IMG/VR virus record: IMGVR_UViG_3300025853_008353
Span: 1 to 25,263 of that record
Length of the DNA stretch: 25,263 bases
Reading direction: 5' to 3' (one strand)
Origin: a virus
Part shown: piece after piece, positions 238-23,627 of the stretch
Layout of the letters: each line of letters begins with the position of its first letter
Numbering within the stretch: position 1 is the first letter of the stretch
Notes under the pieces: model-generated
The model's input: only the letters and a program-made list of their open reading frames with translations
Told to the model about the DNA's origin: nothing
The model's database searches: none
Position numbers and translations under genes: made by a program

Positions 238-1218
238 ATGGCATCATTAGCTGAAATTAGAGCAAAACTAAAAGAACAAGAGAACCGTGCATCAGGCACA
301 AGTTCAAGCGGCGGCGACAACGCAATTTACCCATTTTGGAATATGAAAGAAGGCGACACTGCAACGTTGCGTTTCTTGCCTGATGGCGATGCATCAAACA
401 CTTTCTTCTGGAAAGAACGTTTGATGATCAAACTTCCATTTGCGGGTGTAAAAGGCGATACAAGTTCACGCCCAGTTCAAGTGCAAGTTCCATGTATGGA
501 AATGTATGGTGAATCTTGCCCAATCCTACAAGAGGTGCGTGGTTGGTTCAAAGATCCAAGTCTTGAAGACATGGGTCGTAAGTATTGGAAAAAGCGTTCT
601 TACATCTTCCAAGGTTTTGTTGTAGATGATCCATTAAAAGAAGATTCTCAACCAGAGAATCCCATTCGTAGATTCATCATTGGTCCACAAATTTTCCAAT
701 TAATCAAAGCAGCACTAATGGATCCTGATATGGAAGAACTACCAACAGATTATACTGCTGGTGTAGATTTCCGTTTGTCAAAAGGAACCAAAGGCGGTTA
801 TGCAGATTATGGCGCAAGTAATTGGGCACGTAGAGAGCGTCCACTAGGTGATGCAGAGATGGCAGCAGTAAACACACACGGTCTGTTTAATCTAAACGAC
901 TTCCTTCCTAAAAAACCAGGCGAAGTTGAGCTTAAAGTTCTTACTGAAATGTTTGAAGCAAGTGTAGACGGTGAAGTATATGATCCAGATCGTTGGAGCA
1001 ATTATTTCCGTCCTAGCGGAATGGCTGCACGAACAGGTGACCCAGTAGCACAAGCACCAGCAGCACCAACACCTTCTCCAGTAGAAGATGACATTCCTTT
1101 TAAGTCAACTGAAGAAGCAGCAGCAGAAGCAGCACCTGCTCCAGCAGCAGCACCTGCTGAATCTGCAGGCGGCGCAAGCGACATTCTTGCAATGATCAGA
1201 GCACGTCAAAATCAGTAA
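238..1218 (+). CDS. 32: gp32 single-stranded DNA-binding protein
   Basis: Coats single-stranded DNA during T4-type replication, recombination and repair. At 326 aa it is close to the T4 family length. The basic N-terminus (MASLAEIRAKLKEQENR) is followed by the core. VPCMEMYGESCP carries Cys86 and Cys94, part of the zinc-binding region of this family; the full T4 ligand set is not obvious by eye. The C-terminal tail is a low-complexity Ala/Pro/Glu linker (about 265-312) ending in a short DILAMIRARQNQ helix, where T4 gp32 has its protein-interaction domain. The start is fixed by AAGGAGG at 224-230. It has its own promoter and leader, and uvsX follows after a strong hairpin. T4 gp32 represses its own translation through leader RNA; a possible small pseudoknot in this leader is listed as a finding. 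Confidence 0.93.
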   Translation: MASLAEIRAKLKEQENRASGTSSSGGDNAIYPFWNMKEGDTATLRFLPDGDASNTFFWKERLMIKLPFAGVKGDTSSRPVQVQVPCMEMYGESCPILQEVRGWFKDPSLEDMGRKYWKKRSYIFQGFVVDDPLKEDSQPENPIRRFIIGPQIFQLIKAALMDPDMEELPTDYTAGVDFRLSKGTKGGYADYGASNWARRERPLGDAEMAAVNTHGLFNLNDFLPKKPGEVELKVLTEMFEASVDGEVYDPDRWSNYFRPSGMAARTGDPVAQAPAAPTPSPVEDDIPFKSTEEAAAEAAPAPAAAPAESAGGASDILAMIRARQNQ

Positions 1219-1225
1219 AAACAAC

Positions 1226-1261
1226 GCTGTAGGCTTGTTTTTTAGTAAACAAGTCTACAGC
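1226..1261 (+). terminator. Long hairpin between gp32 and uvsX (partial terminator or RNA stabiliser)
   Basis: GCTGTAG-G-CTTGTTT (1226-1240) pairs with AAACAAG-T-CTACAGC (1247-1261), giving a 15-bp stem with one G-T pair and a 6-nt loop. It is followed by CTTTACGCTTTTT rather than an immediate T run, so termination is probably incomplete. It may instead mark a processing site or protect the gp32 mRNA 3' end. The uvsX ribosome site begins about 14 nt downstream. Confidence 0.65.
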
Positions 1262-1285
1262 CTTTACGCTTTTTAGGAGGTATGT

Positions 1286-2374
1286 ATGGCTACAAAATCT
1301 TTTGATCCTAGTAAGTTTAGGACACAACTTACAAAGAGTATCACTGGTATGAGTGCAGGCTTTAATGATCCAACAGATTGGATCAGCACAGGTTCTTATG
1401 CACTTAACTATTTAATTAGTGGAGACTTTAAAAAAGGTATTCCACTAGGTAAAGTGTCTGTTTTTGCAGGAGAAAGTGGCGCAGGTAAAAGTTACTTTTG
1501 TTCTGGAAATATTGTAAAACATGCACAAGATCAAGGTATTTTTGTTGTTCTTATTGACAGCGAAAATGCATTAGACGAAGCATGGTTGCAAGCTCTTGAT
1601 GTAGATACATCTGAGAGCAAACTACTTAAACTAAACATGTCAATGATCGATGACGTTGCTAAAACAGTATCAACATTTATGGCAGATTACAAAAGCATGG
1701 ATGAAGACGATCGTCCTAAAGTATTATTTGTTATTGATAGTTTAGGTATGTTGTTGACACCTACTGATGTTGATCAGTTTAGCAAAGGTGACATGAAAGG
1801 TGACATGGGTAGAAAGCCCAAGGCACTTACTGCATTGGTCCGTAATTGTGTAAACATGTTTGGTTCACACAACGTTGGACTAGTTGCAACTAACCATACA
1901 TATGCATCGCAAGATATGTTTGATCCGGATGATAAGATTTCAGGCGGTCAAGGCTTTATCTATGCTTCTAGTATTGTTGTTGCCATGAAGAAGCTAAAAT
2001 TAAAAGAAGATGCAGATGGTAATAAAACTAGCACAGTCAACGGTATTCGTGCAGGGTGTAAAGTTATGAAAACACGTTACGCTAAACCGTTTGAAGGTGT
2101 GCAAGTAAAAATTCCTTATGAAACAGGAATGGATCCATATAGTGGACTTTTTGATTTGTTTGAAGCAAAAGGTCTATTAGAAAAACAAGGTAATCGCTAC
2201 AAGTATATTGATAGCGCCGGAGAAGAAACACTAGAATATCGCAAGAACTGGACAGGTGAACTACTCGAAATGGTCATGGCAGATATGCCGCAAAAAGAAG
2301 CACAGATGGTAAATACCGACAATGCAATCGAAGAAGTTGTAGACCATGACGAGGAGCCTGTAGTCAATGAATGA
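1286..2374 (+). CDS. uvsX: UvsX RecA-like recombinase
   Basis: ATP-dependent strand-exchange protein of T4-type phages that loads on gp32-coated DNA. Walker A is GESGAGKS (residues 62-69) and Walker B is KVLFVIDS (145-152). The RecA-type loop VATNHTYAS lies near 200-208 and ISGGQGFIYASS, in the DNA-binding L2 area, near 218-229. The C-terminus is acidic, as is usual for UvsX. At 362 aa it is slightly shorter than T4 UvsX. AGGAGG at 1275-1280 fixes the ATG. It lies directly after gp32, its functional partner, and overlaps the next gene by 8 nt. Confidence 0.95.
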   Translation: MATKSFDPSKFRTQLTKSITGMSAGFNDPTDWISTGSYALNYLISGDFKKGIPLGKVSVFAGESGAGKSYFCSGNIVKHAQDQGIFVVLIDSENALDEAWLQALDVDTSESKLLKLNMSMIDDVAKTVSTFMADYKSMDEDDRPKVLFVIDSLGMLLTPTDVDQFSKGDMKGDMGRKPKALTALVRNCVNMFGSHNVGLVATNHTYASQDMFDPDDKISGGQGFIYASSIVVAMKKLKLKEDADGNKTSTVNGIRAGCKVMKTRYAKPFEGVQVKIPYETGMDPYSGLFDLFEAKGLLEKQGNRYKYIDSAGEETLEYRKNWTGELLEMVMADMPQKEAQMVNTDNAIEEVVDHDEEPVVNE

Positions 2375-2600
2375 AGATCAAATAGTTGATGTTTGGAACT
2401 TGTTTAAAAATTATTTAGACAAAAAACAAATCGATATTGTAGCAGAAAAATTTATTGATATGTTAGCAGACTATGGTGTTGATGATTTAACATTAAAAGA
2501 ATGCTTAGGCACAGATAAAATTTTAGATGCCGCAATACAATACTATTTAGAAGATGACAGCGATGTTGACTACGATGATGACTACGAATGGGATGAATAA
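2367..2600 (+). CDS. Small acidic phage protein, unknown function
   Basis: 77 aa with a very acidic C-terminus (DDSDVDYDDDYEWDE). It overlaps the end of uvsX by 8 nt and the start of the next gene by one base (TAATG), so it is translationally coupled on both sides. Small genes in this position are common in marine T4-like phages, but I cannot name a function. The acidic tail could bind a basic protein partner or mimic DNA; that is inference. No membrane segment or metal motif is seen. Confidence 0.75.
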   Translation: MNEDQIVDVWNLFKNYLDKKQIDIVAEKFIDMLADYGVDDLTLKECLGTDKILDAAIQYYLEDDSDVDYDDDYEWDE

Positions 2601-3055
2601 TGGGATGGTATTCTGAAGTATCAAGAAACATTGGCAAAATTCCTTCTGCAATACAACACTTTGAAACTGAATTAGATTTAGCAAGAAAAGAATGTAAGTT
2701 AGTAGGTAATGTTGAAAAAGCAGCAGCTGAAATGCCAGGTATTGTTGAACATCGTTTCAATCAACTTCAAGAAATTGAAGCAATTCTAAACTATTTAAAT
2801 ATAGAGCTACGCAGATTGCGTAGCTCTTATTTTAAAAAATATCTTGAAAACTATCAACGTGCATTAAGCAGTCGCGATGTAGAACGCTACGTAGACGGAG
2901 AAGCTGACGTTGTTGATTATGAAAAGATTATAAACGAATTTGCATTATTACGTAACAAATGGTTAGGCGTTTTAAAAGCTCTCGATCAAAAGCAATGGCA
3001 GATAACTAATGTTGTAAAATTACGTGTAGCAGGAATGGAAGACGCGACATTATAA
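2600..3055 (+). CDS. Conserved phage protein of the uvsX cluster
   Basis: 151 aa, mostly helical and charged, with no signal peptide or membrane segment. The C-terminal half alternates Arg/Lys and hydrophobic residues (RDVERYVDGEADVVDYEKII, then RNKWLGVLKALDQKQWQIT). The spacing of these blocks is reminiscent of the C-terminus of the UvsY recombination mediator, but the similarity is weak and I do not assign it. The start codon overlaps the previous stop (TAATG) without a Shine-Dalgarno sequence, so it is read by coupling. A strong hairpin followed by T-rich DNA lies inside the coding sequence at 2803-2833. Confidence 0.8.
   Translation: MGWYSEVSRNIGKIPSAIQHFETELDLARKECKLVGNVEKAAAEMPGIVEHRFNQLQEIEAILNYLNIELRRLRSSYFKKYLENYQRALSSRDVERYVDGEADVVDYEKIINEFALLRNKWLGVLKALDQKQWQITNVVKLRVAGMEDATL
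2803..2833 (+). terminator. Terminator-like hairpin inside a coding sequence
   Basis: AGAGCTACGCA (2803-2813) and TGCGTAGCTCT (2817-2827) form a perfect 11-bp inverted repeat with a 3-nt loop (GAT), followed by TATTTT. In form it is an intrinsic terminator or a strong pause site, but it lies mid-gene in the 2600-3055 frame. It would reduce transcription from the recombination block into the sugar block. Confidence 0.55.
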
Positions 3056-4229: not shown

Positions 4230-4994
4230 ATGACAACAGTATTTGTATCTGGCGGATTTGATCCACTTCATAGCGGACATATTGAATATTTTAAAGCAGC
4301 AAAACAATTAGGAGACACTCTCGTAGTTGGAGTGAATAGCGATCCATGGTTGGTTCGTAAAAAAGGGCAAGCATTTATGCCCTTTGAAGAACGTGCTAAA
4401 ATTATTGAAAATTTAGAAATGGTTGACAACGTAATGCTAGTTTCTGACGATGATACAGGAGGAACTAGCAAAGCTATTGGATATTTACTACAAACAACTA
4501 CTGGAAAAATAATTGTTGCTAACGGTGGAGATAGAATCAACGGAGACATACCGGAACAAAAAGTATACGGTAATCATCCTGATGTTGAGTTTGTTTTTGG
4601 TGTAGGTGGAGAAGATAAAAAGAACAGCAGTAGTTGGATTCTAAAAAACTGGGACAAGCCTATAACTAAACGTGCTTGGGGTGAATACAAGGTATTAGAT
4701 CGCAACGGCGAATGGCAAGTCAAAGAACTTACATTTTACCAGGGCAAATCTCTTAGCGATCAACGACACTTTAAACGCAGTGAACACTGGCACGTTGTAG
4801 ACGGTGTTATTAATATGTTTTTACAAGACAAACGAGGTAACAAAACTAGCACCTTGCTAGTCCCAGGAGACAGTATTGATATACCTGTAGGTTGGTGGCA
4901 TAAAGCAGTAAACATAGATAACAAAGATGCTAAAGTAATTGAAGTTTGGCTAGGCAAAGAGCTGACTGAAGATGATATAGAAAGAAGAGATTAA
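4230..4994 (+). CDS. Nucleotidyltransferase-cupin fusion (sugar-nucleotide enzyme)
   Basis: 254 aa with two domains. Residues 1-140 form a cytidylyltransferase-like domain: VSGGFDPLHSGHIEYF contains the HxGH motif at 14-17, and SSSWILK lies near 133-139 where the family has its second nucleotide-binding motif. Residues 143-250 form a cupin like the C-terminal phosphomannose-isomerase part of type II ManC/ManA: KRAWGEYKVL, then QRHFKRSEHWHVVDG and PVGWWHKAVN, with candidate metal ligands H180, E185, H186 and H224. It may couple sugar isomerisation to nucleotide activation. The exact sugar is unknown. No Shine-Dalgarno sequence precedes the ATG. Confidence 0.85.
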   Translation: MTTVFVSGGFDPLHSGHIEYFKAAKQLGDTLVVGVNSDPWLVRKKGQAFMPFEERAKIIENLEMVDNVMLVSDDDTGGTSKAIGYLLQTTTGKIIVANGGDRINGDIPEQKVYGNHPDVEFVFGVGGEDKKNSSSWILKNWDKPITKRAWGEYKVLDRNGEWQVKELTFYQGKSLSDQRHFKRSEHWHVVDGVINMFLQDKRGNKTSTLLVPGDSIDIPVGWWHKAVNIDNKDAKVIEVWLGKELTEDDIERRD

Positions 4995-9297: not shown

Positions 9298-10506
9298 ATG
9301 AATACAAAATTAGAAACTATCGAAGATTGTTTAGAAATAATTACTGGCTTAGTGCGGACTCATGCTCTATGCAAATTTAATATAGACAGTGATGATAAAA
9401 CTATTATAAACAGTATTGCCCGACAAGTTTTTAAAGGTAAAGCATTAACAGACAGACAATTTTCATTGATGCAAACCAAACTATCTATGTATGAATCACA
9501 GTTTGTTGGTAACGGATATAACAATTTTCAACCAGCAATTTCTAGTTTACGTATGCCACTACGTAAAATTGACCGTAGCAAATATGTAAAAATTATTGAA
9601 GGTTCTCCCAAACCAGATTCACAAGGAGAATGGATCAAAATTAGATTTCCTTTTAGCAAAAAAGATATTTTAAAAATTGATGCTGTAGCAACCAAAAACC
9701 GTAAACAATATTGGCATGAAAAAGGTTCACATGAACACTATTTTAAATTAAATGAATCTACAGTATTTGATGTGTGTGAAATATTTGTCAAAAAAGATTT
9801 TGAAATAGATAAAAAACTAATAGAATATTACAAACAAATTTTAGAAATAAAACAAGAACCTGGCAAACACATTGCAGGACTATGGAATAATCAACTAAAA
9901 AATATTCCAAAAAAAGGTATAAACTTTATTGACAAAAAAGAAAGATTACATCTGTTAGACAGAAAAAGACAGTATGGATTAAATTATATAACATGCGATA
10001 AAGATGCAACACTTGCTAACTATATTGCGCATCGTAGTAAGACAGCAATTTGTATAGATCCTAAAAACCACACAATTGACAGTATTGTAGAAAGTTTACT
10101 GGTGTTAGAAAGATTTCCTATTCTTTGTTTATTAGACAAAGAAGAAGAATATGATCAACTGGTTACATTACATACTGCATTTAGAAATATAGTAGAAAAC
10201 AAAAATCAATCAGTATTATATAGAAAAGAAAACACAAGAGAAAAAGATAAAAATTTTAACGAATATATTCACAAGAAAAAACTTAACAATTGGGTTGACA
10301 AATCAACAAAAATTGTATATATAAGTAAGTCTAAACTTCCAAAACTATTACTTACTGTAGACTGGAAGCCACAATGTGTATTGTCATTATCAAGCACAAG
10401 AATGATGACTCAGTTAGGAATATACGTTAATGATGTTTGTGATTTACATATATATCATGATGATAGTCCTAGCTATTTTCCAACTTATGCAGGAGTATTT
10501 AGCTAG
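9298..10506 (+). CDS. Unknown 402-aa protein coupled to UvsW
   Basis: I do not recognise this protein. It is Lys-rich and probably cytoplasmic, with no Walker A, zinc site or membrane segment. Residues 100-160 (EWIKIRFPFSKKDILKIDAV, then KQYWHEKG) look like a small mixed beta/alpha domain. Residues 230-380 alternate hydrophobic strands and helices (TAICIDPK, PILCLLDKEE, KIVYISKSKLPKLLL, CVLSLSS) as in a degenerate helicase-like or Rossmann core. Its stop and the UvsW GTG start share a base (TAGTG), which is strong evidence of a common operon and perhaps a complex with UvsW. A role in branched-DNA processing or origin control is inference. Confidence 0.8.
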   Translation: MNTKLETIEDCLEIITGLVRTHALCKFNIDSDDKTIINSIARQVFKGKALTDRQFSLMQTKLSMYESQFVGNGYNNFQPAISSLRMPLRKIDRSKYVKIIEGSPKPDSQGEWIKIRFPFSKKDILKIDAVATKNRKQYWHEKGSHEHYFKLNESTVFDVCEIFVKKDFEIDKKLIEYYKQILEIKQEPGKHIAGLWNNQLKNIPKKGINFIDKKERLHLLDRKRQYGLNYITCDKDATLANYIAHRSKTAICIDPKNHTIDSIVESLLVLERFPILCLLDKEEEYDQLVTLHTAFRNIVENKNQSVLYRKENTREKDKNFNEYIHKKKLNNWVDKSTKIVYISKSKLPKLLLTVDWKPQCVLSLSSTRMMTQLGIYVNDVCDLHIYHDDSPSYFPTYAGVFS

Positions 10507-11969
10507 TGGCTAGTTGCAAATTAATTATAGAAGACGAAGTTAATATTAAACTAGAAGGACTAGACGTAGATGTCAGACGAAAGCTCTCCAATGCTCTTAA
10601 ATTTGAAGTGCCTTATGCTCGATACATGCCCCAGTATAAATTGGGACGATGGGACGGTAAAGTTGCTTTCTTTGGTATTGGCGGCACAGGCTACGTTAAT
10701 CATCTTGATGTTATTACTTCTGTATTGGAAAAAAATCGTGTCCAAATTGTTGACATTGAAGACCGACGACATCCAATAAAATTAAATTTTCCACAAGTTA
10801 CAGAACGTTACTGGGCTGATCAAGGTGTGCGTTGGCCCAAAGGGCATCCTGCAGAAGGTGAAGAAATCATTCTGCGTGACTATCAAGTAGAAGCAATCAA
10901 CAACTTTGCAAACAATCCCCAGAGCTTGCAACAGATTGCAACTGGCGCAGGTAAAACTATTACAACTGCTACACTATCACATATGAGTGAAAAGTATGGA
11001 CGCAGTTTAGTTATTGTGCCTAACAAGTCACTTGTAACACAAACAGAAGAAGACTATATAAATTGCGGACTTGATGTTGGCGTTTATTTTGGAGACAGAA
11101 AAGAGTTAGGTAAGACTCACACCATCTGCACTTGGCAGTCATTAAACATACTGGACAAGAAGCACAAGGACGGATCAGCAGTATTATCACTAGCAGAGTT
11201 CTTAGATGGTGTGAGCACAATTATTGTAGACGAAGTTCACCAAGCAAAAGCAGAAGTGTTGAAAAACTTGCTTACACGCAACTTAAAAAATGCTCCAATA
11301 CGTTGGGGACTAACAGGAACTATTCCTAAAGAGAAGTTTGAGTTTGAATCAATACATGCAAGTTTAGGTCCAGTTATTGGTGAGATTACAGCAAAAGAAT
11401 TACAAGACAAAGGTGTGCTATCACAGTGTCACGTAAACATTGTGCAACTTATTGATACAGTGGCACATAGAGGCTATCAAGAAGAATTAAAATATCTAGT
11501 TACAAATCAAGACAGAATAAATTACTTAGGCAAATTATTAAACACAGTAAAAGAATCAGGCAACACTCTAATACTTGTAGATAGAATTAGTGCAGGCGAA
11601 ATGCTACAAGAACTTATTCCAGGATCAGTCTTTGTAAAAGGAGACGTAAAACTAAAGGATAGAAAAGATGCGTATGACGAAATCAACGAAGGAACTAATC
11701 ACGTGGTTATTGCCACTTATGGTGTCGCTGCTGTTGGTATTAATATTCCTCGCATTTTTAACCTTGTTCTTATTGAGCCCGGAAAAAGTTTTGTTAGAGT
11801 TATTCAAAGTATAGGTAGAGGCGTTAGAAAGGCAAAGGACAAAGACTTCGTGCAAATATGGGATCTTACAAGCACTTGTAAGTTTGCGAAGCGGCACCTT
11901 ACCCAACGTAAAAAGTTTTATAAGGAAGCAGAATACCCATTCACAATTGAGAAAGTGGATTGGAAATAA
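10506..11969 (+). CDS. uvsW: UvsW-type SF2 DNA/RNA helicase
   Basis: 487 aa, near the length of T4 UvsW, which unwinds R-loops and branched DNA and shifts replication from origin-dependent to recombination-dependent. The N-terminal domain has the UvsW signature YMPQYKLGRWDGKVAFF (about 40-56). The helicase core contains a Q-motif-like LRDYQVEA (123-130), Walker A ATGAGKT (145-151), DEVH box (242-245), LTGT (269-272) and motif VI QSIGRGVRK (434-442). The start is GTG, read by coupling to the previous gene. The next gene begins directly after the stop (TAAATG). Confidence 0.94.
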   Translation: MASCKLIIEDEVNIKLEGLDVDVRRKLSNALKFEVPYARYMPQYKLGRWDGKVAFFGIGGTGYVNHLDVITSVLEKNRVQIVDIEDRRHPIKLNFPQVTERYWADQGVRWPKGHPAEGEEIILRDYQVEAINNFANNPQSLQQIATGAGKTITTATLSHMSEKYGRSLVIVPNKSLVTQTEEDYINCGLDVGVYFGDRKELGKTHTICTWQSLNILDKKHKDGSAVLSLAEFLDGVSTIIVDEVHQAKAEVLKNLLTRNLKNAPIRWGLTGTIPKEKFEFESIHASLGPVIGEITAKELQDKGVLSQCHVNIVQLIDTVAHRGYQEELKYLVTNQDRINYLGKLLNTVKESGNTLILVDRISAGEMLQELIPGSVFVKGDVKLKDRKDAYDEINEGTNHVVIATYGVAAVGINIPRIFNLVLIEPGKSFVRVIQSIGRGVRKAKDKDFVQIWDLTSTCKFAKRHLTQRKKFYKEAEYPFTIEKVDWK

Positions 11970-12476
11970 ATGAGAATATTAACACTTGAAAACCATAGTT
12001 TTTCATTAAATTCATTACCAGAAGTGATTGAAGATGATTTAAGATTTTCGGTATTGGATAATAGTAATCCTGAAGATCCTGATTTCTTTTTTAATCCTTT
12101 GATTTTTTTAGAATCATTTAATGCACCTGCTGTAGTTTTGAATATAGCAGGAAATGAAATCACAATGCCATTAGATTGGTGTGTTGCTGTAGGTTGTAGC
12201 GAATCAGGTAGTGACTTAGAAGTTTTGCCTTTAACTAGTTTAAACGAAAGAGGATTTGAAGCATTTTTATTTAATCCTTTAACTGGAACACATCCAAGAT
12301 TTGCTAAAATTGAAATAACAAACTTTTACAATGACGTAAAATGGTATTTTCCTAAGATGCGTAATGGACATTTGTTATGTGTTCCAATTACAGATAGTAA
12401 GAATCCAGACTGTGTGTATTTTGTAAAAGATATCAATAGGCAAAGTGAAATTATAGACTTTGGTCTACTATTATAA
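11970..12476 (+). CDS. Conserved phage protein, unknown function
   Basis: 168 aa, following UvsW without a gap (TAAATG). It is acidic, beta-rich and probably soluble. Conspicuous segments are PLDWCVAVGCSESG, PLTSLNERGFEAFLFNP and YFPKMRNGHLLCVPI, with the final VYFVKDINRQSEIIDFG. The pattern is one I associate with conserved hypothetical proteins of marine T4-like phages, but no function is known to me. Its lasting neighbourhood with uvsW would argue for a role in replication or late-transcription control; that cannot be shown here. Confidence 0.8.
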   Translation: MRILTLENHSFSLNSLPEVIEDDLRFSVLDNSNPEDPDFFFNPLIFLESFNAPAVVLNIAGNEITMPLDWCVAVGCSESGSDLEVLPLTSLNERGFEAFLFNPLTGTHPRFAKIEITNFYNDVKWYFPKMRNGHLLCVPITDSKNPDCVYFVKDINRQSEIIDFGLLL

Positions 12477-12486
12477 GGAGAGTAAA

Positions 12487-12831
12487 ATGATTGCAGGTAA
12501 AGTTTGGGGACAAACTGAACTTATTCACGCCAACGGTGTGTTAGAGTTTCACCGAATTGAGTTCAAAGGCGGCTACAAGTGTAGTGAGCATGAACATAGA
12601 TTTAAATGGAATGGATTTTTTGTAGAGTCCGGCAAAATGCTTGTTCGTGTATGGCAAAAAGATTATAATTTAATTGATGAAACTATTTTAGGTCCAGGCG
12701 ATTTTACACAGGTAAAGCCGGGTGTTATTCATCAGTTTGAAGGACTAGAAGACGGTGTAGCTTTTGAATTATACTGGGCAGAATTTAATCACAATGATAT
12801 TGTGAGACGAACAGTTGGTTCAGAAATTTAA
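12487..12831 (+). CDS. Small cupin protein
   Basis: 114 aa from the ATG at 12487, fixed by AAGGAGAG at 12475-12482; an in-frame ATG at 12460 lies in the previous gene and lacks such a site. It is a single cupin barrel: SEHEHRFKWNGFFVESGKM holds the HxH...E motif 1, and GPGDFTQVKPGVIHQFEG holds motif 2 with the last His ligand. Single-domain cupins of this type act as sugar isomerases, epimerases or small-molecule binders. It resembles in outline the cupin half of the fusion at 4230. Its place in the second sugar block suggests nucleotide-sugar processing. Confidence 0.82.
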   Translation: MIAGKVWGQTELIHANGVLEFHRIEFKGGYKCSEHEHRFKWNGFFVESGKMLVRVWQKDYNLIDETILGPGDFTQVKPGVIHQFEGLEDGVAFELYWAEFNHNDIVRRTVGSEI

Positions 12832-13591: not shown

Positions 13592-14274
13592 TAGGAATAT
13601 ACGGAGATAGTTATGCAGAGCCAGGTGATTCGTGGGTTGATTATATAAACAGTGATTTTCGTTGTTTTAATAAAGGCGGCAGTAGTATTGATTATTCCTA
13701 TTATAAATTTTTAGAAACACACAAACAGTTTGACAAAATTATTTTTATTGTTAGTAGTTTTCACAGAGGCAGTATTTTTACTTTAGAAAATAATAAATCT
13801 GTGCATATAGCTTTTTACCAAGATGCAGATATAGAAGATATAAAATTTTCAAATATAGATAAAATGGACAGAACAGAATTAAAAAGTTTTAAAAAATACA
13901 ATAAAAAAATCTGGCCTTTTATAGAAAACGAAATTAACAAAATAAAAAATTATGATAGTAATATTGTATATCATAACGCTTATATAGATAGTATATTATA
14001 TCGTCGGCCTGATGCGCATATAGTATATGCATTTCCTTTTCCTAATCGTAGTGATGTAGGAATGATAAACATTAGTAGACTTGATTGGAATCATCTAAAA
14101 TTATCAGAACACAATGACTTTAGATGTTGCCATATGAGTGATACTCAAAACAGAGAATTTGCTAATTATATGATACAGCATATGAATGGAAATATTGACA
14201 TCCACCATACATTCAAAAATGCAAAAGATCATTATACTATTAGTCAAACATTAGAAGAGGCAAATTGGGTATGA
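13588..14274 (+). CDS. SGNH-hydrolase-like protein
   Basis: 228 aa. The N-terminus MIGIYGDSYAEPGDSWVDYI has the GDS(Y) block I of SGNH/GDSL hydrolases, with Ser8 as the likely nucleophile. KIIFIVSSFHRG lies where block III (usually GxND) is expected but lacks the canonical Asn-Asp. NDFRCCHMSDTQNREFANYM near residues 175-195 resembles block V (D..H). SGNH-like proteins in glycan clusters often add or remove acetyl groups on sugars. With a degenerate block III, activity is not certain. ATGA overlap with the previous gene. Confidence 0.65.
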   Translation: MIGIYGDSYAEPGDSWVDYINSDFRCFNKGGSSIDYSYYKFLETHKQFDKIIFIVSSFHRGSIFTLENNKSVHIAFYQDADIEDIKFSNIDKMDRTELKSFKKYNKKIWPFIENEINKIKNYDSNIVYHNAYIDSILYRRPDAHIVYAFPFPNRSDVGMINISRLDWNHLKLSEHNDFRCCHMSDTQNREFANYMIQHMNGNIDIHHTFKNAKDHYTISQTLEEANWV

Positions 14275-15134
14275 AAATATTAGTCACCGGACATAAAGGA
14301 TTCATAGGCAGTCATTATTACAACTATGTAAAGGATACATATGATGTAATTGGTTACGATCAAAAAGATGGTTTTGAAAGTGATTTAAAATGTTCTGACG
14401 TGGCTAACCAATTGCCTGACACTGATGTAGTTGTTCATCTAGCAGCAACCAACGGCACTAAATTATTCTATCAACATCCAACAGATGTTTGTATCAACAA
14501 CACACTGCCAACTATAAACTTAATAAAACGCTATCACAGCACAAAAACTAAGTTCATATTTGCCAGCACTTGTGAAATATTCAACAGCACAATTGACAAC
14601 GGATACTATCATGTGCCCACAGACGAATCAGTGCCTGTGATGTATAATGACATTACAAACCCACGTTGGAGTTATAGCATTCCGAAAGCTCTAGGTGAAA
14701 ATTTGGTAGCAAACAGTGGTTTAGAATATCTCATCATACGCTACTTTAACGTGTATGGACCAGGACAGATTGATCACTTTGTAAATGAATTTGTAGAACG
14801 CTGTAAGCAAGGCGAGTATTACATCAACGGCAATGACACAAGAAGTTTTTGTTATGTAGATGATGCTGTGCGTATGACAGACGTGTTAATTAAAACAGGA
14901 AGTAATCAAACTGTGAATGTAGGCAACGACAACGAAATCAGTATTTCGGTAGTTGCAAAAATGATAATGGGTTATATAGGCATTAATCCAGACAGGTTAG
15001 AAATATTGCCTGGACCAAAAGGCAGTGCTACTCGTAGATGTCCTGACACAACACTAGTGCAAACACTTACAGGATTTACAGATTATACGCCTTTGGAAGT
15101 AGGGCTTAAAAAGACAGTGGAAAGTTTATTATGA
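14271..15134 (+). CDS. NAD(P)-dependent sugar epimerase/dehydratase (extended SDR)
   Basis: 287 aa from the ATG at 14271, preceded by AGAAGAGG; an in-frame TTG at 14265 is less likely. The Rossmann motif is GHKGFIG (7-13), VVVHLAAT lies at 53-60, the catalytic Ser/Thr area is FIFASTCEIF, and YSIPK (135-139) is the YxxxK pair. YFNVYGPGQ and RSFCYVDDAV are typical of GalE-type and dTDP-glucose-dehydratase-type enzymes acting on nucleotide sugars. It is followed at once by a UDP-sugar dehydrogenase (ATGA overlap), so both probably act on one nucleotide-sugar pathway. The exact reaction is open. Confidence 0.88.
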   Translation: MKILVTGHKGFIGSHYYNYVKDTYDVIGYDQKDGFESDLKCSDVANQLPDTDVVVHLAATNGTKLFYQHPTDVCINNTLPTINLIKRYHSTKTKFIFASTCEIFNSTIDNGYYHVPTDESVPVMYNDITNPRWSYSIPKALGENLVANSGLEYLIIRYFNVYGPGQIDHFVNEFVERCKQGEYYINGNDTRSFCYVDDAVRMTDVLIKTGSNQTVNVGNDNEISISVVAKMIMGYIGINPDRLEILPGPKGSATRRCPDTTLVQTLTGFTDYTPLEVGLKKTVESLL

Positions 15135-15922
15135 AACTAGGTATTATTGGAATGGGCGTTGTAGGAAACGCAAACGCAACAGGCTTTAGATTGTTAGAGC
15201 ATGATGTTGTTGAACACGACATCAAGTTTGATACTGAGATAAAAGACCTAGCAGATACAGAAGTGGTGTTCTTGTGCTTGCCTACTCCAGAGGCAAACGG
15301 TGCTTGTGATACTACGGTAATTGAAAGTGTGCTACAAGATCTGATACAAATCAACTATGGTGGTGTTGTGTGTATTCGCAGCACAGTTGAGCCAGGGTTT
15401 ACAGAACGCATGATTGATGAATATCCGTCACTAACAATCTGTTGTGCTCCAGAGTTTTTGCGTGAAAGAGCAGCAGCAGATGACTTTATCAACAATCACG
15501 AATTATTAGCAATTGGAACAGATGATCCGTATGTGTATAAAAAAATTGTAGAAGCACACGGACACCTACCCAAAGCAGTTAAACAACTAGCACCAACAGA
15601 AGCTGAAATATTAAAATACTTCAACAACTCTTATGCGGCATTGCGTATTGTGTTTGCCAATGTGTTTTACGAATTGTGTGAAAAGTTTGATTGTGATTAT
15701 TCACAAGTCAAAGATGCGTATGTTCAAACAGGCAAAACCAAAAACATATACTTGGATGTAAACAATAGATTGCGTGGCTACGGAGGAATGTGCTTGCCCA
15801 AAGATGTAGCAGCACTGGCGCACACTCTAAAACAAAACGGACTTGAATTTGATCTTATTGACAGCATCAAGAATGACAACGAAAAATTAAAAACCACAAC
15901 ATTTTCAGGTATGCGCAAATGA
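15131..15922 (+). CDS. Short UDP-glucose/GDP-mannose dehydrogenase-like protein
   Basis: 263 aa. The NAD-binding motif is GIIGMGVVGNA (4-14). CLPTPEANGACD (49-60), RSTVEPGF (83-90) and APEFLRE (106-112) are diagnostic of the family. K162 and N165-N166 lie in the helix EILKYFNNSYAAL, and the catalytic Cys is C221 in GGMCLPKD. This enzyme class oxidises the C6 hydroxyl of a nucleotide sugar to a carboxylate. Cellular forms are about 400-450 aa and have a third, C-terminal UDP-binding domain that is absent here; the gene ends normally, so this is a compact form rather than a break. Overlaps both neighbours by 4 nt. Confidence 0.88.
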   Translation: MKLGIIGMGVVGNANATGFRLLEHDVVEHDIKFDTEIKDLADTEVVFLCLPTPEANGACDTTVIESVLQDLIQINYGGVVCIRSTVEPGFTERMIDEYPSLTICCAPEFLRERAAADDFINNHELLAIGTDDPYVYKKIVEAHGHLPKAVKQLAPTEAEILKYFNNSYAALRIVFANVFYELCEKFDCDYSQVKDAYVQTGKTKNIYLDVNNRLRGYGGMCLPKDVAALAHTLKQNGLEFDLIDSIKNDNEKLKTTTFSGMRK

Positions 15923-18773: not shown

Positions 18774-19372
18774 ATTTACCTATCACAACTCGTCAAGAAA
18801 TATTAGAAGCTAAAAAACAAATTTGGTTTAATTTTTACAGAATAAGCTCATACAATTTTTATAAAAAGTTTCATCATTTAGTAGTTCAAAATAGATGGAA
18901 CAATCTGATCGAAAAAACCTTTAATAACACAGATGCAATTATTGTAGATACCCATCACAAGTCTTGGGTTGATTTATTTTTGATGCTTTACGTAGATAAA
19001 AAAATAGAGGATCCTATATGTTTGTTTAGAAAAGAAAATTATATGCAACTGGAACCTGGAATAAAAAGACTATTATGTATTCCTTATATGCCAGAACAAA
19101 AACTTAATTACGTTATTTTTAAAGACAACAGAGTAGAAAATCAACTGTTATGGTTAAGCTATGATGTGGAATTGCAAATATTAGTAAATGAAAATATACC
19201 AGCGCATTTTAAAAACAAATACTATGCATCTCGTTGTCAAAGTTTGTATGAAAATAAAAGTGTTCGTGTTGAAAAAATAAAAGACGGTGTATATATAAAT
19301 GGTCGAAAAACTTTTGCTTTAATACAAGATCAATGGAAAATATGTTTGCCTAACTTGATGGAGGAAAAATGA
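18770..19372 (+). CDS. Unknown 200-aa protein
   Basis: I do not recognise it. 200 aa, rich in aromatic residues and Lys. The N-terminal helix region contains FNFYRISSYNFYKKFHHLVV, followed by a strand-like AIIVDTHHKSWVDLFLMLYV. The C-terminus has short beta-hairpin-like segments (VRVEKIKDGVYINGRK). The DTHHKSW block with its Asp and two His might bind a metal, but no known motif fits. ATGA overlap with the zinc-finger gene; the next gene follows with a 4-nt overlap. Confidence 0.68.
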   Translation: MNLPITTRQEILEAKKQIWFNFYRISSYNFYKKFHHLVVQNRWNNLIEKTFNNTDAIIVDTHHKSWVDLFLMLYVDKKIEDPICLFRKENYMQLEPGIKRLLCIPYMPEQKLNYVIFKDNRVENQLLWLSYDVELQILVNENIPAHFKNKYYASRCQSLYENKSVRVEKIKDGVYINGRKTFALIQDQWKICLPNLMEEK

Positions 19373-19794
19373 AAATATTAGTTTTTGGTTTACCAGGGAG
19401 TGGTAAAACTACCCTTGCTAAACCGTTTGCAGAACTTATAGGCGGTGTGCATATCAATGCCGATGAAATACGCAGTCATTATGCAGACTGGGATTTTACA
19501 CCAGAAGGACGGATGCGCCAAGCGTGGCGTATGCGTTACCTAGCAGACGGTGTTGTGCGGGCAGGAAAGATTGCTGTTGCTGATTTTGTTGCGCCCACAG
19601 ATCAAGCACGTATGGAATTCAATGCTGACTTTACTGTATGGATGGACACAATCAAAGAAGGTAGATTTGAAGATACAAACAAAATGTTTGTAGCACCTGC
19701 TCATTGTGATTATCACGTAGAAGATTGGTTTAACGATACACACGAACAACTTTTGCCTGTTGTGAAAAGATGGATGGAAAGAAATAATGTTTGA
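19369..19794 (+). CDS. Adenylylsulfate-kinase-like P-loop protein
   Basis: 141 aa. Walker A is GLPGSGKT (7-14). NADEIRSHYADWDFTPEGR (31-49) corresponds to the APS-binding DGDNVR block of CysC, and GKIAVADFVAPTDQARMEF (about 67-85) to the IVAFISPYREDR block. APS kinase phosphorylates adenylylsulfate to PAPS, the sulfate donor. This protein is shorter than CysC (about 200 aa) and could phosphorylate another small substrate. GGAGG about 6 nt before the ATG supports the start. It overlaps a nucleotidyltransferase gene by 8 nt, and the pair likely acts together. Confidence 0.78.
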   Translation: MKILVFGLPGSGKTTLAKPFAELIGGVHINADEIRSHYADWDFTPEGRMRQAWRMRYLADGVVRAGKIAVADFVAPTDQARMEFNADFTVWMDTIKEGRFEDTNKMFVAPAHCDYHVEDWFNDTHEQLLPVVKRWMERNNV

Positions 19795-20194
19795 TAGATT
19801 TAAACCTACTACACAAATGCTTGGACGTTGGCAACCTTGGCATCCAGGTCATACAGAACTATTCAAACGTGCTCTAGCAGAAACAGGACAAGTTTGTATT
19901 ATGATTAGAACTGTTCCACAAGATCAAGATGCCTCAGGTGGACGAACTATGATACAAGACGATAACCCATTTATTGTTACAGATGTCGAAGAAAATATCA
20001 AAAAAGAATTACAAAAAGAGGGCTTTACATACGGCAAAGAATATGTTATTATGATAGTGCCCAATATTGTTGATATCAGTTATGGTAGAGGTGTTGGTTA
20101 TACTTTTACCGAACATAACTTAGGCCAAGAAATACACAACATAAGTGCAACAAAAATCCGTGCAGAAATGAGGCGCAATGGAGAATTGGATTAA
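19787..20194 (+). CDS. Nucleotidyltransferase of the HxGH (cytidylyl/adenylyl) family
   Basis: 135 aa. GRWQPWHPGHTELFKRAL (13-30) holds the HxGH motif at 19-22. HNISATKIRAEMRRNG near the C-terminus is the second motif (ISxTKIR). This pattern is shared by adenylyl- and cytidylyltransferases such as NMN adenylyltransferase, FAD synthetase and glycerol-phosphate cytidylyltransferase. Next to an APS-kinase-like protein it could form a small activated-nucleotide pathway. It is only distantly related to the HxGH domain at 4230. ATG overlaps the previous gene by 8 nt and the next by 17 nt. Confidence 0.8.
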   Translation: MFDRFKPTTQMLGRWQPWHPGHTELFKRALAETGQVCIMIRTVPQDQDASGGRTMIQDDNPFIVTDVEENIKKELQKEGFTYGKEYVIMIVPNIVDISYGRGVGYTFTEHNLGQEIHNISATKIRAEMRRNGELD

Positions 20195-20468
20195 ATATAT
20201 TGTAAACTTTTGTAAAGAAAGTTATAGACTATCACCTGTTGCATTTTATTGTGAAATGGCAGAAACAACAATATTAATTGCAGCAAGTGCTGTTTTAACA
20301 TTTACAGTTTTAGATCCTGCTACTGAGATTTTTATTCCAATGTATTTGTTAGGAAGTATACTTGGAGTTATTAGCACTGTGATTCGTAAAGCAGCATTTG
20401 CAATAGTATTGTGTGCTTGGTTTGTTGTTATGAACAGTATTGCAATGATACAGTTATTTTTAATTTAG
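20178..20468 (+). CDS. Small membrane protein, unknown
   Basis: 96 aa with two or three membrane segments: about 30-48 (TTILIAASAVLTFTVL), 52-69 (FIPMYLLGSILGVISTVI) and 73-95. The N-terminus is polar with a few Lys residues. It probably inserts in the host inner membrane. The function is not known. It starts inside the end of the nucleotidyltransferase gene and ends 7 nt before the mini-DnaE gene. Confidence 0.7.
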   Translation: MENWIKYIVNFCKESYRLSPVAFYCEMAETTILIAASAVLTFTVLDPATEIFIPMYLLGSILGVISTVIRKAAFAIVLCAWFVVMNSIAMIQLFLI

Positions 20469-20475
20469 GAATGAT

Positions 20476-21036
20476 ATGCCAGATATTGATATAGACTTTG
20501 CTGATCGCAGTGTTATATTAGAAAAAATACCTCATCGTGTAGCAAAACTAGATACAGGTAAAAAACACAACACTGGTGTATATGTCACAGAGTGTCCTCA
20601 TAATCCTGTGGACAATTTAGCTACTATTGATTACAAAACAGCAGAAGACAGAGGCTATTTCAAACTTGACTTTTTGAATGTAAGTATCTACAATGATGTT
20701 AAAGATGAACAACACCTAACCAAACTAATGGAAAAGGAACCACAATGGGACTTACTGGAGCACGACGATTTTACCAACTTGCTGTTTCACGTCAGCGGAC
20801 ATGGGGAGATACTAAGAAAGCTCAAGCCGATATCGGTGGAACAACTAGCAGCAGTGTTAGCGATAATACGGCCTGCGAAGAGGCATCTTGTCAACGAAAC
20901 ATGGCAAACGATCGAAACAGAAGTATGGAAAAAGCCAGAGGATAATAGTTACTACTTTAAAAAAGCACATGCAGTTGCATATGCTGTAAGTGTTGTAGTT
21001 CATATGAATTTAATTTGTGAACAATTTACTGCTTAA
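20476..21036 (+). CDS. Miniature DnaE-like protein (C-family polymerase palm fragment)
   Basis: 186 aa. It starts at the first catalytic motif of bacterial DNA polymerase III alpha: PDIDIDFADR (2-11), with the Asp pair. KHNTGVYVTECPHNPVDNLA (30-49) matches KHAGGVVIAPTKITDFAPL of E. coli DnaE. GYFKLDFLNV (60-69) matches LVKFDFLGL, carrying the third catalytic Asp (D65). HGEILRKLKPISVEQLAAVL followed by IIRPAKRHL (109-138) matches [20 protein letters not shown] followed by LFRPGP. YYFKKAHAVAYAVS (159-172) matches GFNKSHSAAYALVS. Lacking are the PHP domain, the stretch between the first and second motifs, most of the fingers, and the C-terminal clamp- and tau-binding regions. The ATG has AGGA 6 nt upstream, and the frame is intact. 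Confidence 0.75.
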   Translation: MPDIDIDFADRSVILEKIPHRVAKLDTGKKHNTGVYVTECPHNPVDNLATIDYKTAEDRGYFKLDFLNVSIYNDVKDEQHLTKLMEKEPQWDLLEHDDFTNLLFHVSGHGEILRKLKPISVEQLAAVLAIIRPAKRHLVNETWQTIETEVWKKPEDNSYYFKKAHAVAYAVSVVVHMNLICEQFTA

Positions 21037-21400
21037 CAGTTTTTTTAATTAGTTGCACACTTTTACGTTTTATTCTTTTTATTGCTAAATTGTTTACATT
21101 TACACATGGTCCAATAACAATTTTAACATTTTTACTGTTCATAGTTAATAAAGAATAATTTAAGTTTTCAATTTCTTTTTTCAAAAATATATTAATTGGA
21201 ATCATTCTGTTGGATTCCCACCACCAGACATCACCTAAATCTAAAAGTAATTTTTTATCATACTCAGTTTTTAAAACTGTATATACAAACATACTTGTAA
21301 CAAATTGATCTTGATTTGAAATTATGCCCACGTATTCTTGTCCGCCATATGCGACTACACTAATATACGGATACTGATCTTCTATTTCTTTTAATAACAT
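21026..21400 (-). CDS. Conserved phage protein with WWWESN motif, leftward
   Basis: 124 aa. It opens with MLLKEIEDQYPYISVVAYGG and contains LLLDLGDVWWWESNRMIPI, then a basic C-terminus (IKRIKRKSVQLIKKTVK). The LGDVWWWESNR-IPINIF block resembles a conserved hypothetical protein of marine T4-like phages as I remember it; the function is unknown. It converges on the mini-DnaE gene with an 11-nt overlap and is divergent from the virion-type gene at 21434. No Shine-Dalgarno sequence is evident before its ATG. Confidence 0.72.
   Translation of the reverse strand: MLLKEIEDQYPYISVVAYGGQEYVGIISNQDQFVTSMFVYTVLKTEYDKKLLLDLGDVWWWESNRMIPINIFLKKEIENLNYSLLTMNSKNVKIVIGPCVNVNNLAIKRIKRKSVQLIKKTVKQ
21028..21046 (+). 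terminator. Possible weak terminator between converging genes
   Basis: ACTG (21028-21031), loop CTTAA, CAGT (21037-21040) and six T (21041-21046), at the end of the mini-DnaE gene and overlapping the end of the leftward gene. The 4-bp stem is short, so this is tentative. Confidence 0.3.
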
Positions 21401-22634: not shown

Positions 22635-23627
22635 ATGAGCATCGTATCTGACACCTTGACTTTATATCTGCCTGCAAAGCGCAAAACAACACCCAGTGGG
22701 TGGACTAGTTTTAATGCGCCTTGTTGTGTGCATAACAATGAAAATGCAGACACAAGAGGACGTGGCGGTGTAATATATGAAGGTGACTTGGTAAGTTATC
22801 ATTGCTTCAACTGTGGCTTCAAAGCAAGTTGGCAACCAGGACGTAATCTAAGTTACAAGTTTAAGAAACTGTTAGAATGGTTAAACGCACCTGATGCTGA
22901 TATTACAAAACTAGCACTAGATGTTATGCGTGAAAACGAAGGTGTAGAAGTCCAGCAGCACAGAGTTGAACTACCTGAATTTGCTACAACACAACTACCA
23001 GAAGGTGCAGAGCCATTGTCCAAACACATGTGGGCAGAGGCTGGTCATTTAGATGAAAGAATCGCACGTTGCTTTCAGTATATGTTAGAACGTGATTTAA
23101 ATATTGAGGACATAGATTATCACTGGTCGCCAACACTTGCTTATAGAGATAGACTTATTATACCCTTCTACTACGAGGGGCGTGTAGTGGGTTATACAGC
23201 CCGCACAGTAGGGGATAATAGAGTAAAGTATCTTACTGACTCACAGCCAGGTTTTGTGTTTAATTTAGACGAACAAGGGCACAACAAGGTGTTTACTATA
23301 CTATGCGAAGGTCCTATTGATGCGCTACATGTTGACGGTTGCGCACTTACAGGCAGTGATATAAATGATGCTCAAGCACTGCTACTCAACAGACTGGGCA
23401 AGGATATATATGTTGTGCCCGACAGAGATCGTGCCGGTGCTAAACTAGTTGAACAAGCTATTGATCGAGGTTGGCATGTTAGTATGCCAGATTGGGATAT
23501 AGGAATAAATGACATAGGTGATGCAGTAGCAAAATATGGAAGGCTATATACATTATACAGTATTGCGAATTCAGCAGAGAGTTCGCCACTTAAAATTAGA
23601 TTGAGAGCTAAAAAATGGTTTACTTAA
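22635..23627 (+). CDS. 61: gp61-type DNA primase
   Basis: Makes RNA primers for lagging-strand synthesis together with the gp41 helicase. 330 aa, near the length of T4 gp61 (342). The N-terminal zinc ribbon has C30/C31, H33, C57 and C60 (APCCVH, then YHCFNCGF). The Toprim core has LCEGPIDALH (E225, D229) and VVPDRDRAG (D263, D265). The final part is basic (RLRAKKW). It has its own strong promoter, consistent with early expression. Its 3' end overlaps the next small gene by 13 nt. Confidence 0.93.
   Translation: MSIVSDTLTLYLPAKRKTTPSGWTSFNAPCCVHNNENADTRGRGGVIYEGDLVSYHCFNCGFKASWQPGRNLSYKFKKLLEWLNAPDADITKLALDVMRENEGVEVQQHRVELPEFATTQLPEGAEPLSKHMWAEAGHLDERIARCFQYMLERDLNIEDIDYHWSPTLAYRDRLIIPFYYEGRVVGYTARTVGDNRVKYLTDSQPGFVFNLDEQGHNKVFTILCEGPIDALHVDGCALTGSDINDAQALLLNRLGKDIYVVPDRDRAGAKLVEQAIDRGWHVSMPDWDIGINDIGDAVAKYGRLYTLYSIANSAESSPLKIRLRAKKWFT

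Follow-up and report, generated by a model that had tools for sequence, protein, structure and literature searches.

The window, by which is meant the whole 25,263-nucleotide stretch of viral DNA analysed here, carries on its plus strand, at 20476..21036, an open reading frame that starts with ATG, encodes 186 residues and is confirmed as a real gene. Its product belongs to phrog_11778 and is called the C-chain below, as the probable C-terminal chain of a split minimal C-family (DnaE-like) polymerase. The sequence AGGA at 20467-20470 (plus strand), identified by eye 5 nt before the ATG, is likely to be the ribosome-binding site. The open frame around the gene spans only 190 codons, so that the start can hardly be elsewhere and a longer ORF is ruled out.

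The first-pass annotation described this protein as a 186-residue miniature of bacterial DnaE, and the motifs that it named are all found, aligned with E. coli DnaE and in the same order, on the plus strand. The chain begins with PDIDIDF (residues 2-8, 20479..20499), in which the metal-binding D3 and D5 correspond to E. coli D401 and D403. This is followed by KHNTG (residues 30-34, 20563..20577), aligned with E. coli KHAGG 510-514 and its H511; by KLDFL (residues 63-67, 20662..20676), with K63 and the third catalytic aspartate D65 (E. coli K553 and D555); by LKP...RP (residues 116-133, 20821..20874), a remnant of the fingers at about E. coli 623-640, its RP matching R639; and by FKKAHAVAYA (residues 161-170, 20956..20985), the counterpart of FNKSHSAAYA at E. 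coli 756-765, with K758 and H760. The same annotation had the PHP domain, most of the fingers and all C-terminal modules missing, and this agrees with what we find: the 186-residue chain gives no PHP match in Pfam, the thumb, the RRAMGKK fingers and the C-terminal modules are gaps in its alignment with DnaE, and nothing is matched past about E. coli residue 781. The GRGS motif is also absent from the window protein, and sits in a separate protein of its relatives, the N-chain. This points away from a self-contained miniature DnaE, as first proposed, and towards the C-terminal chain of a two-gene enzyme.

The C-chain of the window begins at the catalytic strand (MPDIDIDF), and in the best 80 C-chain loci from IMG/VR the start is PDIDIDF or a close variant, with ORF lengths of 185-228 residues. 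About 12 of these 80 have a possible earlier start, an in-frame TTG, GTG or ATG 1-37 codons 5' of PDIDIDF, and in the C-chains of cultured phages as many as about 18 residues come before the DxDxD motif; not every member, then, begins at the motif.

The 3' end of the gene overlaps by 11 nt a small convergent gene on the minus strand (21026..21400, 124 residues, phrog_11637). This neighbour is conserved: among the 71 of the 80 C-chain loci that were counted, a convergent minus-strand gene lies downstream in 70, overlapping in 45 of these 70, and all six named phages viewed likewise have a gene on the minus strand that runs into the end of the C-chain gene. The rest of the window bears out the T4-like setting that had been suggested, with a replication and recombination module encoding SSB, a UvsX-like recombinase and a UvsY-like mediator (238..3055), a DNA helicase (10506..11969, phrog_16) and a DNA primase (22635..23627, phrog_47), all on the plus strand; the B-family polymerase that belongs to this setting is found in relatives. 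The helicase is probably of the UvsW type, a name suggested by the gene order as annotated for 121Q and CBB, the PHROG itself being DNA helicase. In 121Q, Paride, Phosso and CBB the annotation runs from the C-chain through the convergent small gene and a virion-structural or hypothetical gene to primase and helicase, and Atu_ph07 has the same run of genes with the primase unnamed. The neighbourhood is common to Rak2-like phages and environmental contigs.

Some other genes of the window are worth recording. There are two cysteine-dioxygenase-like matches (phrog_7851), at 4230-4994 and 12460-12831, the former fused to a nucleotidyltransferase-like part (phrog_7878). Sugar-nucleotide genes (an epimerase and a UDP-glucose dehydrogenase-like gene) lie within the replication module at 14265-15922. 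At 19369-20194, the ORF of a P-loop kinase lies next to that of a nucleotidylyltransferase-like protein, and each matches a different half of phrog_10255 (positions 2-116 and 124-228 of 230), so that there are two chains here and apparently one elsewhere.

The relationship to DnaE, which had been read from the motifs alone, is upheld by profile searches. The window protein matches phrog_11778 with E = 3.9e-63, and its weaker PHROG matches include the full-length phage DnaE family phrog_405 (1.8e-7). Single-sequence searches of Pfam and NCBIfam give Pol III alpha only, in weak matches to PF17657 (DNA_pol3_finger; 0.12, below the cut-off) and NF005377 (7.9e-4). A profile of 79 C-chains searched against the PDB gives Pol III alpha in all nine matches listed at E <= 10, the best with E 0.0015.

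Conservation was analysed on alignments of distinct chains, with identical proteins removed and the partial locus L210 omitted. The first two cover 69 of the 80 C-chain loci (A1, in which the window stands in for the identical locus L002) and 55 of 80 N-chain loci (A2). The 79 C-chains of alignment A3 comprise 64 of the 69 in A1 and 15 of 23 further distinct C-chains, and the 61 N-chains of A4 comprise 51 of the 55 in A2 and 10 of 11 further ones. The 79 aligned C-chains are down to 36% identical and share 31 invariant positions. The three catalytic aspartates, which the first-pass annotation had as retained, are among these: D3, D5, D65, K63, H31, R132, K162, K163 and H165 are invariant in 79/79, the window included. 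The codons of the catalytic aspartates vary synonymously; of 69 sequences, all with Asp at position 65, 37 use GAC there and 32 use GAT. For pairs with dS between 0.1 and 1.5, the median dN/dS (Nei-Gojobori) is 0.149 for the C-chain (590 of 2346 pairs) and 0.208 for the N-chain (1314 of 1485 pairs). The C-chain is conserved and under purifying selection.

Homologues, for which a search had been proposed, are found well beyond the window, both in cultured phages and in environmental sequence. The window C-chain is 69-89% identical to the other members of A1 and about 34-51% identical to the homologues of cultured phages. In tblastn the window protein matches 77 phage records at E <= 0.01, of which 14 are Streptomyces phages; the rows inspected among these carry annotated DnaE-like Pol III alpha genes. 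The homologue from Phosso matches 63 records, and the 60 listed come from phages of Klebsiella, Salmonella, Escherichia, Erwinia, Pseudomonas, Agrobacterium, Sinorhizobium, Vibrio, Salicola and other hosts; with seven RefSeq/GenBank twins and many close relatives among them, these 60 are not independent. One phage with the family, Slicko01, has a length of 141 kb, under the usual jumbo size. A scan of IMG/VR found at least 554 stretches that encode C-chain relatives, a count that may include ordinary DnaE genes because the search pattern was MPDIDIDF; the best 80 loci are all separate half-size chains. Megablast of the window against phages gave no match. A 97.8-kb environmental contig (G001, locus L002) is 99.99% identical to the window over 10,788 bases, and is evidently the same phage.

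The second half of the polymerase was recognised in Pectobacterium phage CBB, which has a homologue of the window gene (gp287) and a protein of 172 residues, gp328, whose sequence stops where the window protein starts. A report on that phage (PMC5259590) describes gp328 (CBB_328) as a truncated Pol III alpha, in passages that do not link it to the C-chain gene; here it is identified as the N-chain of the pair. It belongs to phrog_11127 (1.7e-87) and matches PF07733 at profile positions 20-95 of 260. The N-chain, of about 172-187 residues, carries the GRGS motif and the part of the palm that precedes the catalytic strand. Relatives occur in environmental contigs G002 (185 residues) and G003, and a scan of IMG/VR with the G002 protein found 488 stretches that encode relatives. 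In the best 80 of these loci the N-chain is a separate half-size chain of 173-187 residues, ending in ...LDWREFLR, in the variants HEFLR, QEFLR or REFMR, or one Asp later. GRGS is invariant in 61/61 aligned N-chains, and the position of E. coli R390 (of FERF) is taken by an invariant glutamate (E182). In a profile search of the PDB, nine of the 14 matches listed for the N-chain are Pol III alpha (E 0.014-0.026), and the remaining five are unrelated proteins with worse E-values.

A natural single-chain fusion of the two halves was looked for among the 80 C-chain and 80 N-chain loci examined, and there is none; nor were inteins that might join the halves seen by eye at the chain ends. In GenBank entries (CBB, GAP32, 121Q and others) the N-chain is named as Pol III alpha, and the C-chain is often called hypothetical or a putative membrane protein; for CBB the C-chain is a putative membrane protein in GenBank and a DNA polymerase in RefSeq.

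The two halves are found together in nearly all of the listed phage records. Tblastn (N-chain, 60 of 87 records listed; C-chain, 60 of the 63 found) places an N-chain in 58 of the 60 listed C-chain records, and a profile search adds Slicko01 (E 2.3e-13), giving 59 of 60 overall. The sole C-chain record of the 60 without an N-chain match is PP728206, of 109.5 kb, where its relatives have about 350 kb. Two phages are in the N-chain list only, namely Stenotrophomonas phage CM1, which yet has a C-chain match by the other tblastn, and Bacteroides phage BS-TP1. In IMG/VR, 12 of the 13 contigs with an N-chain of the CBB type are also C-chain contigs, and the remaining one is of 41 kb. A search of 17 records with both profiles found both halves in eight (G002, G003, G014 and five named phages), the C-chain only in five (G001, G004, G005, G006 and G007) and the N-chain only in four (G013, G015, G016 and G017), all nine of which may be incomplete contigs. 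The named phages with both families include 121Q, CBB, Atu_ph07, Paride and Phosso. The case that fits strict pairing least is G004, the largest C-chain-only contig at 261.8 kb. PF00136, the B-family polymerase, is present in all eight records with both halves, in three of the four with the N-chain only and in none of the five with the C-chain only; it is also present in Slicko01 and a Vibrio phage, both of which have both halves, which makes 10/10 of the two-half records checked. The sequenced part of the window's own phage (G001, incomplete) has neither N-chain nor B-family polymerase. The genes for the two chains are 11-224 kb apart, by record coordinates in 12 genomes.

AlphaFold2 predicts the C-chain well (79 sequences, pLDDT 87.4, pTM 0.74), with D3 just before the strand of residues 4-8, D5 within it, and D65 in the strand of residues 63-68. 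The prediction for the N-chain is weak (61 sequences, pLDDT 70.8), being confident at about residues 81-140 and low before residue 65 and around GRGS (pLDDT about 52 there). In Foldseek, the top 16 of 123 matches of the C-chain are DNA polymerase chains, one of them alone at E <= 0.001, and the top 11 of the N-chain are Pol III alpha in the PDB, none at E <= 0.001. Comparison by VIA is clearer. The first-pass annotation asked whether the three aspartates come together in a palm; what the comparison shows is that the C-chain model matches DnaE/PolC structures over its whole length, in 14 entries with Z 6.3-9.6 (next, unrelated row Z 3.5). The N-chain model matches 15 entries with Z 6.6-10.4 (next row 2.1). 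These entries are Pol III alpha or PolC, counting three titled only 'DNA polymerase' as PolC by inference. The Z values are modest, but well above those of the unrelated rows.

The whole C-chain model (1-186) is placed on E. coli 401-781 (2hnh, Z 9.2), M. tuberculosis 419-808 (5lew, Z 9.6) and Taq 461-838 (3e0d, Z 9.6), with 178-184 residues aligned and rmsd 3.7-4.1. The N-chain model, through its residues 63-185 or 67-185, is placed on E. coli 271-393 (2hnh, Z 8.8), M. tuberculosis 304-413 (5lew, Z 10.4, rmsd 2.6, 102 residues aligned) and Taq 290-455 (2hpi, Z 7.2). The predicted folds of the two chains tile the same DnaE structures without overlap, on E. coli as 271-393 and about 401-781. 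Sequence profiles, in weak matches, give the same limits: up to E. coli 392 for the N-chain (E 0.015) and from MPDIDIDF of the M. tuberculosis chain for the C-chain (whole-sequence E 0.0015). Between them the two chains have counterparts for E. coli R362-S364, D401, D403, H511, K553, D555, R639, K758 and H760. By the usual borders of the DnaE domains, what is missing is the PHP domain, the thumb between D403 and H511, the LRRAMGKK stretch (706-715, with R709/R710) and everything after about 781. In DnaE, R390 and R709/R710 contact the nucleotide; since the LRRAMGKK stretch is absent and R390 is replaced by Glu, nucleotide binding must differ from that of DnaE. Pol III alpha binds the clamp and tau through its C-terminal domains, and we take these modules to be among the parts lost after residue 781.

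It is worth adding that the window's phage also encodes a second polymerase of the same family, a compact single-chain DnaE of 548 residues without a PHP domain (P0007). It lies on contig G001 about 2.4 kb past the window end (L091:130-1776, minus strand; L263:3001-4644), just after a helicase that by eye looks DnaB-like. It matches PF07733 (E 6.9e-42) and PF17657 (E 9.1e-16), for palm and fingers, and has its own GRGS-like, DxD and D motifs. The C-family palm and fingers are common to this protein and the C-chain; unlike the split pair, it is a single chain that keeps a thumb-length stretch and an RRAFAKK motif, and with them both the R390 and the finger-arginine features that the pair has lost. 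It is present in six of 22 contigs tested, which include L014, too short to reach its position, and L112, brought in by its N-chain. In IMG/VR, 235 stretches encode relatives, and the contigs of the 80 loci examined are no longer than about 101 kb. A homologue 38% identical to the compact DnaE occurs, with PF00136 matches, in an uncultured 484-kb phage (LR756508), which gives no C-chain match. Phages with the split pair may hold up to three polymerase designs, namely B-family, compact DnaE and split DnaE.

Bacteroides phage BS-TP1 has a different arrangement. Here a protein of 577 residues (L343:4825-6558) is the N-terminal part of a PHP-DnaE, ends near the end point of the N-chain and has an intein-like tail; the Pfam model Intein_splicing matches a 235-residue piece at 0.0062, below the cut-off, and is not among the matches of the whole protein. 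A second DnaE piece (361-1077) lies elsewhere. Possibly a split intein has broken a DnaE gene here at almost the position where the minimal enzyme is divided, which would offer a lead on how that enzyme became split.

Taken together, these results make it quite probable that a minimal C-family DNA polymerase is made up of two chains, of which the window protein is the C-terminal one. The chains would most likely assemble non-covalently into a composite palm without PHP domain or thumb. The C-chain would supply the metal-binding D3, D5 and D65, K63 and a shortened template/finger module, and the N-chain (phrog_11127; 185 residues in G002) the beginning of the palm with its GRGS loop, so that both would fold into one palm with a composite active site and no covalent joining. 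We infer that an N-chain is present in the window's own phage. Lacking PHP domain, thumb, R-R-A-M-G-K-K motif and all parts after 781, the pair would probably be non-processive and work alongside the B-family replicase of the phage; the filling of short gaps, repair and synthesis coupled to recombination are examples of such a role. The loss of thumb and finger arginines favours a slow, distributive or specialised reaction.

The loss of the finger motif also makes polymerase activity of the pair uncertain. With the metal site and GRGS kept and the thumb and finger arginines gone, the composite two-chain site may catalyse some other nucleotidyl transfer (priming, end addition or a step of DNA modification); we regard this as possible but not likely. 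Also rather improbable is a non-catalytic replisome factor or decoy, in which the halves keep a DnaE surface for binding primer-template or the Pol III partners of the host. Such a role would suit the loss of thumb, PHP, RRAMGKK and everything past about E. coli 781, the invariant Glu at R390 in the N-chain and the B-family polymerase that relatives own. However, a decoy needs no metal aspartates, no K63 and no GRGS, and these are invariant in 79/79 and 61/61 sequences; moreover, the C-terminal domains that bind clamp and tau are among the missing parts. A decoy is thus less likely than a reconstituted active site. The co-occurrence of the halves and the selection on them could also reflect two separate functions.

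Two further explanations seem very improbable. If the C-chain were a stand-alone miniature nucleotidyltransferase, functionally unrelated to the N-chain, this would be in keeping with its confident prediction as a single chain (pLDDT 87.4) and its full set of three aspartates; but the GRGS part of the palm is not in this chain and is encoded by a second gene in 59/60 listed records, and the matches of the two chains to the same DnaE chains do not overlap. The lone mini-DnaE was rejected once the N-chain had been found in relatives. Hardly more credible is that, in the window's phage, the C-chain serves the 548-residue compact DnaE in place of an N-chain, for example as an accessory palm. The near-identical G001 does encode the compact DnaE and shows no N-chain; yet that DnaE comes with GRGS-like, DxD and D motifs of its own and is found in only 6/22 contigs, and G002, whose C-chain is 80% identical to that of the window, has an N-chain and no compact DnaE. 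Finally, a decaying fragment of a captured host dnaE, which the strong truncation might suggest and which the first-pass annotation already doubted, can be set aside almost entirely, as it is contradicted by the selection test (median dN/dS 0.149), the 31 invariant positions in 79 sequences, the recurrent start and the shared neighbourhood.

If the two-chain polymerase is active, it would to our knowledge be the smallest C-family polymerase core. It would also mean that a Pol-beta-type palm can be split into nucleotide-binding and metal-binding halves that work in trans, and would explain why phages with a B-family replicase keep genes of a bacterial-type polymerase. Both gene families are common in viral contigs (at least 554 stretches for the C-chain and 488 for the N-chain).

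Our literature search found no functional measurement and no bench test for the split pair. By phrase search a single paper treats it; in the passages found by term, two reviews (PMC8775771, and PMC12926913 on bacteria) make no mention of it. That paper (Iyer et al., 2021, Viruses 13:63, PMC7824862) reports a split minimal Pol III alpha in group 2.2 jumbo phages, and suggests that the halves reconstitute an enzyme that cooperates with the B-family enzyme or acts in repair. The arrangement is the same as in the relatives studied here: two proteins from distantly located genes, beside a B-family replicase, one with the N-terminal nucleotide-binding and the other with the C-terminal Mg2+/template-binding part. 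Like CBB_328, gp316 of Atu_ph07 (PMC6102473) is probably a truncated Pol III alpha of this kind. Compared with bacterial DnaE (E. coli, Taq, M. tuberculosis) and PolC, the pair has the same palm motifs, the same order of KxDFL, KH..G, LKP...RP and FxKxHAxxYA, and a matching fold (Z up to 9.6 for the C-chain and 10.4 for the N-chain), and differs in being cut just before PDxDxDF and in lacking PHP, thumb, RRAMGKK and the parts after 781. Given this prior report (Iyer et al., 2021), the window is a further, environmental member of the split Pol III alpha group (PMC7824862), distinguished by a phage that also has a compact DnaE. What is added here is the exact limits of the split, the selection on both halves, and the separate compact DnaE of 548 residues in the same phage.
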